Below, one piece after another: positions 59,722 through 64,000 of a DNA stretch of 64,000 nucleotides. Position numbers and translations under genes: made by a program. The notes beneath the pieces are model-generated. The model did not search any database. It was not told the origin of the DNA and was given only the letters and a program-made list of their open reading frames with translations. Numbering within the stretch: the first letter of the stretch is position 1; the number at the start of each line of letters is the position of its first letter. The stretch comes from Desulforamulus hydrothermalis Lam5 = DSM 18033 (GTDB lineage Bacteria > Bacillota > Desulfotomaculia > Desulfotomaculales > Desulfotomaculaceae). Location of the stretch: assembly GCF_000315365.1 (NCBI RefSeq), contig NZ_CAOS01000001.1:63456-127455 (forward strand), read 5' to 3'.

Positions 59722-60141
59722 ATGGTCAGTGTTAACGTTATCAAGCGGGGGTTATATAAAGGAATAACCACCACCTGGCTGCTAGCCAAAGTGGTGGTGC
59801 CGGTTTATCTGGCGGTTACTTTTTTAAGCTTTACACCTTTGTTAAATAAACTTGCCACCCTGTGCGCTCCTTTAATGAAATACCTGGGGCTGCCGGGAGA
59901 GGCATCCCTGGCCATAGTGCTGGGCAATGCGGTGAATCTTTATGCAGCCCTGGGGGCAATGGCTTCGTTGCCTTTAACATCACGGGAGGTCACCATTATA
60001 GCGATGATGTTGCTGCTTTCCCATACAATTTTTGTTGAAAGTGCGGTAGCCGGTAAATGCGGTATTAACCCTTGGGTTGTCGGCGGTTGTCGCTTTGTTT
60101 TTTCAGTGACAGTGGGGGTATTCTTAAATCAAGTGCTTTGA
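59722..60141 (+). CDS. Gate (nucleoside-recognition) domain membrane protein, A
   Basis: 139 aa, four TM helices. LGLPGEASLAIVLGNAVNLY and the FVESAVAGKCG region belong to the Gate/spore-maturation-A/B-like family. Transport or regulatory role unknown. GGCAGGAGG upstream of ATG. Adjacent to a second Gate protein, probably forming a heteromer. Confidence 0.82.
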   Translation: MVSVNVIKRGLYKGITTTWLLAKVVVPVYLAVTFLSFTPLLNKLATLCAPLMKYLGLPGEASLAIVLGNAVNLYAALGAMASLPLTSREVTIIAMMLLLSHTIFVESAVAGKCGINPWVVGGCRFVFSVTVGVFLNQVL

Positions 60142-60180
60142 AAATATTTAACCCAGATTAACTTTCAGAGGATGTTCAAA

Positions 60181-60684
60181 ATGGATTGGTCAGAATTTAT
60201 TAAAACTGCTGTTAGTGGCAGTCTGCGTAGTGTAGGGCAAATGGCCCTGATTATTATTCCTTTAATGGTAATACTGGAAATTGCCAAAGAAATACAGCTA
60301 ATGGACAGGATAGCCCACCGGCTGGCACCGGCCATGAGGTTTTTTAAACTTCCCCCGGAAAGTGCTTTTCCTGTTTTAATCGGTTTAACCTTTGGCTTAG
60401 CATACGGTGCCGGCTTAATTATTGAAAGCGTAAAGACCGGACGGCTGTCCTGGCGGGATTTGTTTATAATTAATGTATTTTTGATTTTGTGCCATTCGGT
60501 GGTGGAGGATACAGCCCTTTTTATCGCGGTGGGAGCCGACGGTACTGTTATTTTGCTTGGCAGAATTATCTTAGCTCTGGTTGTAACCTATTTTTTATCA
60601 CGATGGCAAGGGTTAAACAGGCTGGAGAGAATATTGGGCGGCAGCATTGATGTTCCCCGTTGTACGCATTGCCGGAAAGGATGA
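60181..60684 (+). CDS. Gate (nucleoside-recognition) domain membrane protein, B
   Basis: 167 aa from ATG 60181 (AGAGG at a suitable distance; ATG 60172 abuts it). TM helices with the Gate pattern (GSLRSVGQMALIIIPLMVIL, FPVLIGLTFGLAYGAGLIIE, LILCHSVVEDTALFIAVG) and a short tail with Cys pair (CTHCRKG). The HSVVEDT motif is characteristic of the B-type partner. Likely pairs with the protein at 59722. Confidence 0.82.
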   Translation: MDWSEFIKTAVSGSLRSVGQMALIIIPLMVILEIAKEIQLMDRIAHRLAPAMRFFKLPPESAFPVLIGLTFGLAYGAGLIIESVKTGRLSWRDLFIINVFLILCHSVVEDTALFIAVGADGTVILLGRIILALVVTYFLSRWQGLNRLERILGGSIDVPRCTHCRKG

Positions 60685-61708: not shown

Positions 61709-61737
61709 TTGACAAAAGTTTGCAGTCTTGGTAGTAT
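61709..61737 (+). promoter_or_regulatory. Promoter of the tandem riboswitch transcript
   Basis: -35 TTGACA (61709-61714), 17-base spacer, -10 TAGTAT (61732-61737). Start expected near 61744, just before the guanine aptamer. Confidence 0.75.
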
Positions 61738-61759
61738 AAATTTAGACAAGTGAAAAATT

Positions 61760-61824
61760 TCCGTATATGCTTGGGAATTGGCCCAAGTGTTTCTACCGGG
61801 CAACCGTAATTGCCTGACTACGGA
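61760..61824 (+). promoter_or_regulatory. Purine (guanine-type) riboswitch aptamer
   Basis: P1 TCCGTA/TACGGA (61760-61765 with 61819-61824). J1/2 TATA, P2 with loop-2 GAATTGG, J2/3 GTTTCTACC, P3 with loop-3 CCGTAA and J3/1 GACTAC. The C at 61818 occupies the specificity position, as in guanine rather than adenine aptamers. No terminator of its own follows. Confidence 0.93.
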
Positions 61825-61928
61825 GGGAAAGTGTACCTAGGGTTCCACAACCGTTGGGTTGGGTTGGTCCAAGCGGTACAGGCGTTTTGCGCTACACCTA
61901 TAGGGATAAAAGCCCAGGAGGTAGGTTT
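61824..61928 (+). promoter_or_regulatory. PRPP riboswitch aptamer (ykkC subtype 2b)
   Basis: Carries the ykkC core GGAAAGTGTACCTAGGGTTC, TTGGTCCAAGCGGTACAGGC, CTACACC and AGGGATAAAAGCCCAGG, and the 3' extension GGTAGGTTTC typical of PRPP rather than guanidine sensors. It directly follows the guanine aptamer, the known tandem arrangement in which guanine represses and PRPP overrides. Confidence 0.9.
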
Positions 61929-61970
61929 CACTCTGCTATTGAGGATGAAGCCTATCTGCCTGGGCTTTTT
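61910..61970. terminator. Shared riboswitch terminator, likely bidirectional
   Basis: AAGCCCAGG (61910-61918) and AGGTAGGTTT (61919-61928) pair with AAGCCTATCT (61949-61958) and CCTGGGCTT (61959-61967), then TTT on the plus strand. The left arm is part of the PRPP aptamer, so PRPP binding prevents the terminator. Read on the minus strand the hairpin is followed by TTTTA and can also end the csp transcript. Confidence 0.85.
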
Positions 61971-61990: not shown

Positions 61991-62188
61991 TTACAGTTTG
62001 ATTACATTGGCCGCTTGCGGGCCGCGAGTACCTTCTACTATATCAAATTCTACCGGCTGACCTTCTTCCAGTGTGCGATAACCATCGGTTTGAATAGCAG
62101 AATAATGAACAAAAACATCCGTGCCGGATTCGGCTTCGATAAATCCGTACCCCTTATTTGCGTTAAACCATTTAACCTTACCTTGCAA
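61991..62188 (-). CDS. Cold-shock (CspA-family) protein
   Basis: 65-aa OB-fold RNA chaperone with RNP1 KGYGFIE and RNP2 [21 protein letters not shown] start and [10 protein letters not shown] end are typical. GAGGAGG ribosome site on the minus strand. It lies head-on between the riboswitch terminator and the transporter genes, so riboswitch read-through would be antisense to it. Confidence 0.97.
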
Positions 62189-62377
62189 TTTATTTCCTCC
62201 TCAAAATTATATAAAGCAAAACTGCTTCTACCTTAAAGTATGGGCAATAAAATGCCAAGCTATTCCTTGTCTTTAAAATATTTAACAGGTTTCAAAGAGG
62301 TTTCTGATCCAGGGGGTGAGAAAGGTCATAACAGAGCAGTTAAGATTTACGTCTTTAAAATGTAAGGAGGGTAAAAG

Positions 62378-63487
62378 GTGAAAAAAATTTTATGGTTTGT
62401 TTTAATGTTAATGCTTGCCTTTAATTTGGCTGGCTGTGGCGGCGAGAAGCCCCAGGTGCAAGATGATAAAAAGCAAGCTGCATCGTCTGAAAAACTGAAA
62501 ATTGCGTTTGTTTATGTGGGGCCGGTGGGTGATGGCGGCTGGAGCTATGCCCATGACCAGGGGCGCAAGTATTTAGAACAGCAAATACCGGATGTGGAAA
62601 CCACTTACATTGAGTCTGTACCTGAAGGTGCTGATTCTGAACGGGTAATTACCGAACTGGTTGAAAAGGGTAATAAAATTATTTTTGCTACCAGTTTTGG
62701 CTTTATGGACAGTGTGATTAAGGTGGCACAAAAATATCCTGATGTAAAGTTCTTGCATTGCTCCGGTTACAAAACCGCCGAAAATGTTGGTACTTATTTT
62801 GGTCGTATGTACCAGGCCCGCTATCTTACGGGTATTGTAGCCGGTAAAACCACCCAAAGCAATGTCATCGGCTATGTGGCTGCTTTCCCCATTCCCGAAG
62901 TAATTCGTGGCATTAATGCTTTTACTCTGGGGGTACGTTCTGTTAACCCCAACGCCAAGGTAAAAGTGGTTTGGACCAACACCTGGTATGATCCCGCCGC
63001 TGAAAAAGAAGCAGCCAAGAGTCTGCTGGAAGCCGGGGCGGATGTAATTACGCAGCACCAGGATACTCCCGGGCCCCAACAGGCGGCTGAAGAAAAAGGT
63101 AAGTTCAGTATAGGGTACAACAGCGACATGAGCAAAATGGCACCCAAGGCAGTATTGACTTCTGCCGTCTGGAATTGGGGTCCCTACTATGTGGAAACTG
63201 TGAAAGCCATTAAAGAAGGAACCTGGAAGAGCAACCAGTACTGGGGGCCCATGTCTGATCAAATTGTTGACCTGGCACCCTTTGGCCCGATGGTTCCGGA
63301 TGATGTAAAAAAATTGGTAGAAAATAAAAAACAAGAGATTATTTCCGGTAAATTTGACGTATTTACCGGCCCCATCAAAGACCAAACCGGCAAGGAGCGT
63401 GTAGCCGCCGGCCAGCAAATGTCGGATGCAGATATGCTTTCCTTTGACTGGTTTGTGGAAGGTGTAGAAGGTACCATACCCAAATAA
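62378..63487 (+). CDS. BMP-family substrate-binding lipoprotein (nucleoside-type ABC transporter)
   Basis: 369 aa. Signal peptide with lipobox LAGC (Cys20), Lys/Ser linker, then a BMP/PnrA-type binding domain (IAFVYVGPVGDGGWSYAHDQ G, IFATSFGFMDSVIKVA, NVGTYFGRMYQARYLTGIVA G, NVIGYVAAFPIPEVIRGINA F, ADVITQHQDTPGPQQAA, IGYNSDMSKMAP). Homologues bind purine nucleosides or related bases. AAGGAGGG upstream. It is the first gene downstream of the guanine-PRPP riboswitch, which supports a purine-salvage cargo, although the opposing csp gene lies between them. Confidence 0.93.
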   Translation: MKKILWFVLMLMLAFNLAGCGGEKPQVQDDKKQAASSEKLKIAFVYVGPVGDGGWSYAHDQGRKYLEQQIPDVETTYIESVPEGADSERVITELVEKGNKIIFATSFGFMDSVIKVAQKYPDVKFLHCSGYKTAENVGTYFGRMYQARYLTGIVAGKTTQSNVIGYVAAFPIPEVIRGINAFTLGVRSVNPNAKVKVVWTNTWYDPAAEKEAAKSLLEAGADVITQHQDTPGPQQAAEEKGKFSIGYNSDMSKMAPKAVLTSAVWNWGPYYVETVKAIKEGTWKSNQYWGPMSDQIVDLAPFGPMVPDDVKKLVENKKQEIISGKFDVFTGPIKDQTGKERVAAGQQMSDADMLSFDWFVEGVEGTIPK

Positions 63488-63545: not shown

Positions 63546-64000
63546 GTGACTGCCGATTTTCTGGTGGAAATGAAGCAAATCAGCAAAAGATTTCCTGGCG
63601 TGTTGGCCAACGACTGTATCGATTTGCAGGTAAAGAGAGGCGAAGTCCTGGCCTTATTGGGTGAAAACGGCTCGGGCAAAAGCACTTTGATGTCTATATT
63701 GTCTGGGCTTTACCGCCCGGATGCCGGTGAGATATATATTGAAGGCAGAAAAGTAAACTTTAAATCTCCTCGCGATGCCATTGATGCCGGCATTGGCATG
63801 GTACACCAGCATTTTAAACAAGTAGATACTTTTTCGGTGGCTGAAAATATTATATTGGGCAGCAAAGAAAAAAAATGCCTGTTACAGGCAGGTAAAGCAG
63901 AAAAAGAAATTGCAGAAATTTCGCGGGGATATGGCCTGCAAGTTGAGCCAACCGCAAAAATATGGCAGTTATCCATTGCCGAACGCCAGCGGGTAGAGAT
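63546..64000 (+). CDS. ABC transporter ATP-binding protein (partial)
   Basis: The first 151 codons are present and the gene runs off the window. GTG 63546 with GGGGAGAGG upstream. VEMKQISKRFPGVLANDCID, Walker A LLGENGSGKSTLMSIL, Q-loop region MVHQHFKQVD and the start of the signature area (LSIAERQRVEI) fit the double-ATPase type (YufO/RbsA-like) that partners BMP-family binding proteins. Membrane components are expected beyond the window. Confidence 0.93.
   Translation, partial: MTADFLVEMKQISKRFPGVLANDCIDLQVKRGEVLALLGENGSGKSTLMSILSGLYRPDAGEIYIEGRKVNFKSPRDAIDAGIGMVHQHFKQVDTFSVAENIILGSKEKKCLLQAGKAEKEIAEISRGYGLQVEPTAKIWQLSIAERQRVE

Follow-up and report, generated by a model that had tools for sequence, protein, structure and literature searches.

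A tandem guanine-PRPP riboswitch upstream of a predicted purine salvage operon in Desulforamulus hydrothermalis

The locus and its RNA element

The window analysed here, a stretch of 64,000 nucleotides from Desulforamulus hydrothermalis Lam5, carries a tandem guanine-PRPP riboswitch with a shared terminator at 61709-61970, followed by a cold-shock gene on the opposite strand and the beginning of an operon for nucleoside uptake. The original prediction had placed such a tandem at this position, and covariance models, individual residues and an alignment of 27 tandems agree that it is present. The first gene 3′ of the terminator, overlooked in that prediction, is csp on the minus strand (61991-62188; PF00313, 9e-32), which encodes a cold-shock (CSD) protein, converges with the riboswitch and is antisense to a read-through transcript. 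It is divergent from bmp, with an intergenic region at 62189-62377. The bmp gene (62378-63487, plus strand; PF02608, 3.5e-70), encoding a BMP/PnrA-type nucleoside-binding lipoprotein, starts ~410 nt beyond the terminator and is the first sense gene of the operon. It is followed by an ABC transporter ATPase gene (63546-64000, plus strand; PF00005, 1.4e-23) that extends past the window, and then, further along contig C1, by two permeases (BPD_transp_2) and xpt (up to about 131148), whose product has an XPRTase match above the NCBIfam cut-off. Based on this gene order, bmp-ATPase-permease-permease-xpt, we predict a purine salvage operon and not a de novo one, and it is through these salvage genes that the tandem has its association with purine metabolism. 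The earlier description of the element as standing ahead of a transporter instead of de novo purine genes therefore holds for the operon, but not for its being directly ahead, since csp intervenes.

On the minus strand, an Rfam match to the cspA thermoregulator stayed below threshold (37.1 bits against a cut-off of 78) and was taken as coding similarity to csp instead of an RNA element. Elsewhere in the window we observed a SAM riboswitch (RF00162, 28805-28909, plus strand, 93.5 bits) and, at 59722-60684 (plus strand), a tandem pair of small Gate-domain (nucleoside recognition) membrane proteins (both PF07670), which resemble the spore maturation proteins SpmA/SpmB.

The riboswitch is preceded by a sigma-A-type promoter (61709-61737, plus strand), which a consensus scan recovered as predicted, TTGACA(61709)-17-TGG-TAGTAT(61737), that is, TTGACA-17-TAGTAT with a TG extension. 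It has 10 of 12 consensus matches plus the extended -10 element, and the top-scoring promoter occupies the equivalent position, with intact TTGACA, in 26 of 27 homologous tandems. The guanine aptamer (61758-61826, plus strand; P1 61758-61765/61819-61826) was matched by RF00167 at 61741-61840 with 78.4 bits (E 2.6e-12, cut-off 37), and its P2 and P3 covary in the 27 tandems. The residues cited for the guanine-I class (PMC9295807), U22 (61766), U51 (61794) and C74 (61818), are all intact, which bears out the predicted specificity C at 61818 and led us to reject adenine, xanthine-II and 2′-dG variants. The PRPP (ykkC-2b) aptamer (61827-61929, plus strand; match about 61825-61929), assigned by the PRPP-class covariance model and its residues, adjoins the guanine aptamer; its P1 begins at 61832, so that the two P1 stems are 7 or 5 nt apart (61824 or 61826 to 61832), a spacing that fits the 5-7 nt tandem definition. 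No terminator was found between the two aptamers. A single intrinsic terminator hairpin (61908-61969, plus strand; -38.0 kcal/mol), found in 27 of 27 tandems, draws its 5′ arm from the 3′ strand of P3 and a P0 strand of the PRPP aptamer, as had been proposed, and ends in a short U-tract (61966-61970, TTTTTGGCATTG).

Ligand class and conserved structure of the tandem

An Rfam scan of the second aptamer yielded no PRPP or ppGpp family among its matches and Guanidine-I only (61826-61922, 61.1 bits, under the cut-off of 63); class models were therefore built from loci of the same order, a PRPP-class model (R1) from 30 sequences with the window left out and a ppGpp-class model (R2) from 22. The second aptamer scored 116.7 bits (E about 1e-27) with the former and 75.3 bits with the latter. 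Control PRPP-class loci scored 107-124 bits with the PRPP model and 69-78 with the ppGpp model, and control ppGpp-class loci, four of which had been included in building R2, scored 78-84 and 127-139 bits, respectively. Covariance-model scanning, which the original prediction had suggested as a check, thus recovered the purine class and ranked PRPP above ppGpp and guanidine.

A5, G6, G48, C49, C75, C77, C78, G96 and G104/G105 have been listed among the PRPP contacts or markers, and the G96A change turns PRPP specificity into ppGpp specificity (PMC6031431). With residue numbers transferred by an alignment made in this analysis, each has the PRPP identity in the window: A5 at 61830, G6 at 61831, G48 at 61873, C49 at 61874, C75 at 61895, C77 at 61897, C78 at 61898, G96 at 61917 and G104/G105 at 61924-61925 (A103-G105 being 61923-61925). 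A101 of T. mathranii is without a counterpart in the window or in most of the genus, where the element is 1 nt shorter, and the Thermoanaerobacter tails GCCCGGGAGGATAGGT agree with G95-G96-G97 and A101 of PMC6031431. The window element combines the ykkC-2b features of G96, C75, a pyrimidine at position 49 and a P0 helix (GAAA 61827-61830/UUUC 61926-61929), in line with the aptamer class originally proposed. That it is instead of the ppGpp (ykkC-2a) or guanidine-I type is extremely improbable: Guanidine-I is the sole Rfam model matching it and the difference between 2a and 2b barely exceeds one residue (PMC6031431), but it has G at position 96, where ykkC-2a has none, C and not A at position 49, where A would mark Guanidine-I, and both P0 strands, the PRPP-class model leads by 41 bits, and at the ppGpp-like loci of the order the sequence is CCCAAGCGG or CCCGAGCGG, lacking G at position 96, with no adjoining purine gene among the tabulated loci. 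The guanine-PRPP identity of the tandem is accordingly well supported, and the evidence speaks against a ppGpp or guanidine subtype. The ppGpp riboswitch resembles the window element in its ykkC fold and P0 tails and differs in lacking G96, in its downstream genes and in the lower score of its model. As a separate observation, ppGpp-type aptamers in family f4 and relatives (L067, L069, L071, L074, L106, L107 and others) are preceded, ~100 nt before the ykkC aptamer, by T-box-like sequences (GGTACCGCG...CGTCCCTGG), which recall the known T-box/ppGpp tandem.

Pairing statistics were based on an alignment (A1) of 27 tandems of the order Desulfotomaculales. Over these tandems, 95.4% of the proposed pairs of the combined secondary structure are formed and 15 pairs show changes in both partners; none of 500 shuffles was equally good, and the P0 helix is formed in all 27. 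Terminator pairing holds in 93.6% of cells over the 27 tandems, falling to at most 65% when the pairing is slid. Terminator covariation in the same tandems showed no excess over shuffles, because the aptamer fixes the 5′ arm. The minimum-energy fold of the full leader includes the terminator (-89.9), and when the terminator 3′ arm is held unpaired most helices of both aptamers persist at an energy of -64.7; given these energies, the switch would have to act during transcription. Two features of the guanine aptamers were noted in passing. In L038, L044 and L055, three species with a bmp-linked tandem, an A/A mismatch replaces the P3 closing pair at the binding junction (CTACA...AACTAC) and C74 is kept despite it, and in most Desulforamulus guanine aptamers the kissing loops L2 and L3 (A1 columns 35 and 65) are each 1 nt below the Rfam consensus.

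Operons headed by the tandem and origin of the bmp linkage

Guanine aptamers number exactly two in this genome, as do strong ykkC aptamers, and together they make up two tandems. The second tandem (contig C14:3372-3561), followed by an NCS2-type permease, purE, purB, purC and further pur genes, is alike in RNA architecture and promoter, but it stands directly ahead of its permease-purE-purB-purC genes with no intervening gene and has a longer U-tract (TTTTTTGTTTT), next to which that of the window is weaker. Searching 113 genomes of the order with RF00442 retrieved about 96 loci, whose neighbour genes were assigned by tblastn against the proteins of this genome. Within the genus, the tandem heads three kinds of operon: permease-purEBC, bmp...xpt and an adenine deaminase type. 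The riboswitch-csp-bmp layout occurs in six Desulforamulus genomes, with csp in the same place and orientation in all six, and the bmp...xpt tandems of the genus are always accompanied by the antisense csp. In family f7 (L097, L099, L102, L103) the tandem lies directly before bmp...xpt and csp is absent. In four genomes (L040, L043, L050, L056) a tandem is followed by a gene for adenine deaminase, one for a xanthine dehydrogenase-like protein and a second bmp/ABC set, and this third operon is predicted to serve purine breakdown or interconversion.

More widely, 84,980 species genomes were scanned with a sequence pattern, giving at least 120 matching stretches, 80 loci of which were sampled for gene content. 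An NCS2-type purine permease is the first recognisable gene in 39 of the 80 sampled tandems (of at least 120), among them the second tandem of this genome, and purE in 10, while in Brevibacillus and Paenibacillus xpt comes first, with a xanthine/uracil-type permease next in two confirmed cases. The suggestion that a transporter in first place is an oddity was rejected on these counts. A nucleoside-ABC/xpt operon under the tandem is rarer than a transporter generally, which is common.

Orthologues of bmp occur in 40 of the 113 genomes, and 30 were inspected. The SigH consensus of B. subtilis is AGGAwWW...GAAT. A motif resembling it (GCAGGATTT-N-GAAT) is located about 120-215 nt before bmp in 15 of 21 riboswitch-less orthologues (L260, L261, L297-L301, L309-L312, L314-L317) and in none of the nine bearing a riboswitch, with a shuffled expectation of about 0.01 per sequence. 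The exclusion has a Fisher p of 0.0007, not corrected for phylogeny and resting on 1-3 phylogenetically independent contrasts, too few for a corrected test; it persists (13/19 vs 0/9) when the discovery genomes G052 and G057 are left out. These two congeners keep csp-bmp without a riboswitch, have a SigH-like promoter before bmp, and on the other flank of csp possess different genes and an ordinary terminator.

On the Bmp tree the riboswitch requires three changes, and relatives of the SigH type separate the f7 and Desulforamulus carriers. A single origin was rejected, as the AU test gave p 4.7e-6 against one clade of Desulforamulus and f7 bmp-tandems. The tandem was probably recruited to the bmp operon at least twice, replacing a SigH-like promoter. 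The tandem RNAs cluster by lineage and not by operon, which suggests separate recruitment of a local tandem copy in each lineage or homogenisation within genomes, since the latter could give the same clustering. If orthologous operons have indeed exchanged a SigH-like promoter for a two-input riboswitch, as appears to be the case, this would represent a natural rewiring experiment.

Proposed route from riboswitch to operon

We consider it likely that the tandem functions as a transcription-attenuation gate on the predicted bmp...xpt salvage operon, and for the window locus we infer binding of the ligands, the switching itself, read-through over csp and a physiological rationale as follows. With PRPP bound, the PRPP aptamer would hold the P3/P0 strands paired, and because these strands double as the terminator 5′ arm, RNA polymerase would read on; with PRPP absent, the -38 kcal/mol terminator would be free to form. 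Guanine on the upstream aptamer would promote the terminator by destabilising the adjoining PRPP aptamer, whose 5′ strand starts 0-2 nt past the guanine P1. The read-through transcript would extend ~410 nt over the csp antisense strand to bmp, and nucleoside import and xanthine/guanine salvage by Xpt would proceed only at ample levels of the co-substrate PRPP or when guanine is scarce. The IMPLY logic of this scheme is assumed by homology with the B. megaterium riboswitch.

This type of RNA device has been described before (Sherlock et al. 2018, PMC5912903); its setting here is unusual. In that work the tandem guanine-PRPP riboswitch of B. megaterium codA was assayed, and the published tandem-associated genes are de novo purine genes up to IMP, and codA. 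As described there, the codA tandem likewise has the guanine aptamer ahead of the PRPP aptamer, a gap of 5-7 nt separating their P1 stems, transcriptional control and a single terminator, the 5′ arm of which is partly PRPP-aptamer sequence. Unlike it, the window tandem precedes a nucleoside uptake and xpt operon instead of codA or de novo genes, has an antisense csp between switch and operon, and has ligands that are predicted from its sequence. Singlet guanine riboswitches before xpt and nucleoside transporters in Bacillus (e.g. yxjA, PMC9756952) similarly exert guanine-OFF control of salvage and uptake, but lack a PRPP input and have a separate expression platform. Outside the supplementary gene lists of PMC5912903, we found no literature on a tandem with a bmp...xpt operon or on a riboswitch-antisense csp layout. 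The guanine-PRPP gate would extend from de novo synthesis to purine salvage, meaning uptake and the PRPP-consuming Xpt, and, in sister species, to an operon of the adenine deaminase-xanthine dehydrogenase-like type, in which case the published rationale, covering genes up to IMP only, would be incomplete.

Read-through across the antisense csp appears to be the best-supported route to bmp, because in none of six species did the stretch from the hairpin to bmp yield a plus-strand terminator and no promoter-like site between csp and bmp is common to them. A link between riboswitch and bmp despite csp is likewise suggested by this lack of a terminator, by the f7 operons, where bmp directly follows the tandem, and by the distribution of the SigH-like motif. 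A weak sigma-A-like site between csp and bmp (ATGCCA-16-TAAAAT, 9/12) makes an internal promoter possible. On this site, on the intervening antisense gene and on the two congeners that possess bmp without a riboswitch one could build a reading in which bmp is driven by its own promoter after csp, the riboswitch being a relic or adding only some read-through. We regard this as unlikely, however, since all six species retain an intact tandem whose PRPP aptamer shows no decay, the SigH-like promoter is missing exactly where the riboswitch is present, the weak site occurs in the window and not in the other five species, and the intergenic sequence near bmp is not conserved.

Less probable still is that the tandem chiefly gates an antisense RNA against csp, whereby purine status would set the level of a cold-shock RNA chaperone. 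The read-through RNA would be complementary to the whole csp mRNA, and the convergent layout is kept in 6/6 riboswitch-bearing congeners. For csp itself, five of these six species offer no recognisable terminator other than the riboswitch hairpin read in reverse, which may therefore serve both units. However, in f7 the tandem heads the bmp operon with no csp present, which points to the bmp operon as the conserved target, a second csp copy (78% identical) exists elsewhere, and csp adjoins bmp also in the two riboswitch-less congeners, so that its position is independent of the riboswitch. Marginally more doubtful again is an arrangement in which purine status tunes csp via the fully antisense leader and a two-way terminator on which Csp could in turn feed back; the family has members that melt terminators, its proteins can attenuate terminators in E. 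coli (PMC9765468), and feedback on the riboswitch terminator is possible, if wholly speculative. The antisense gene within a riboswitch-controlled leader is in itself a testable oddity.
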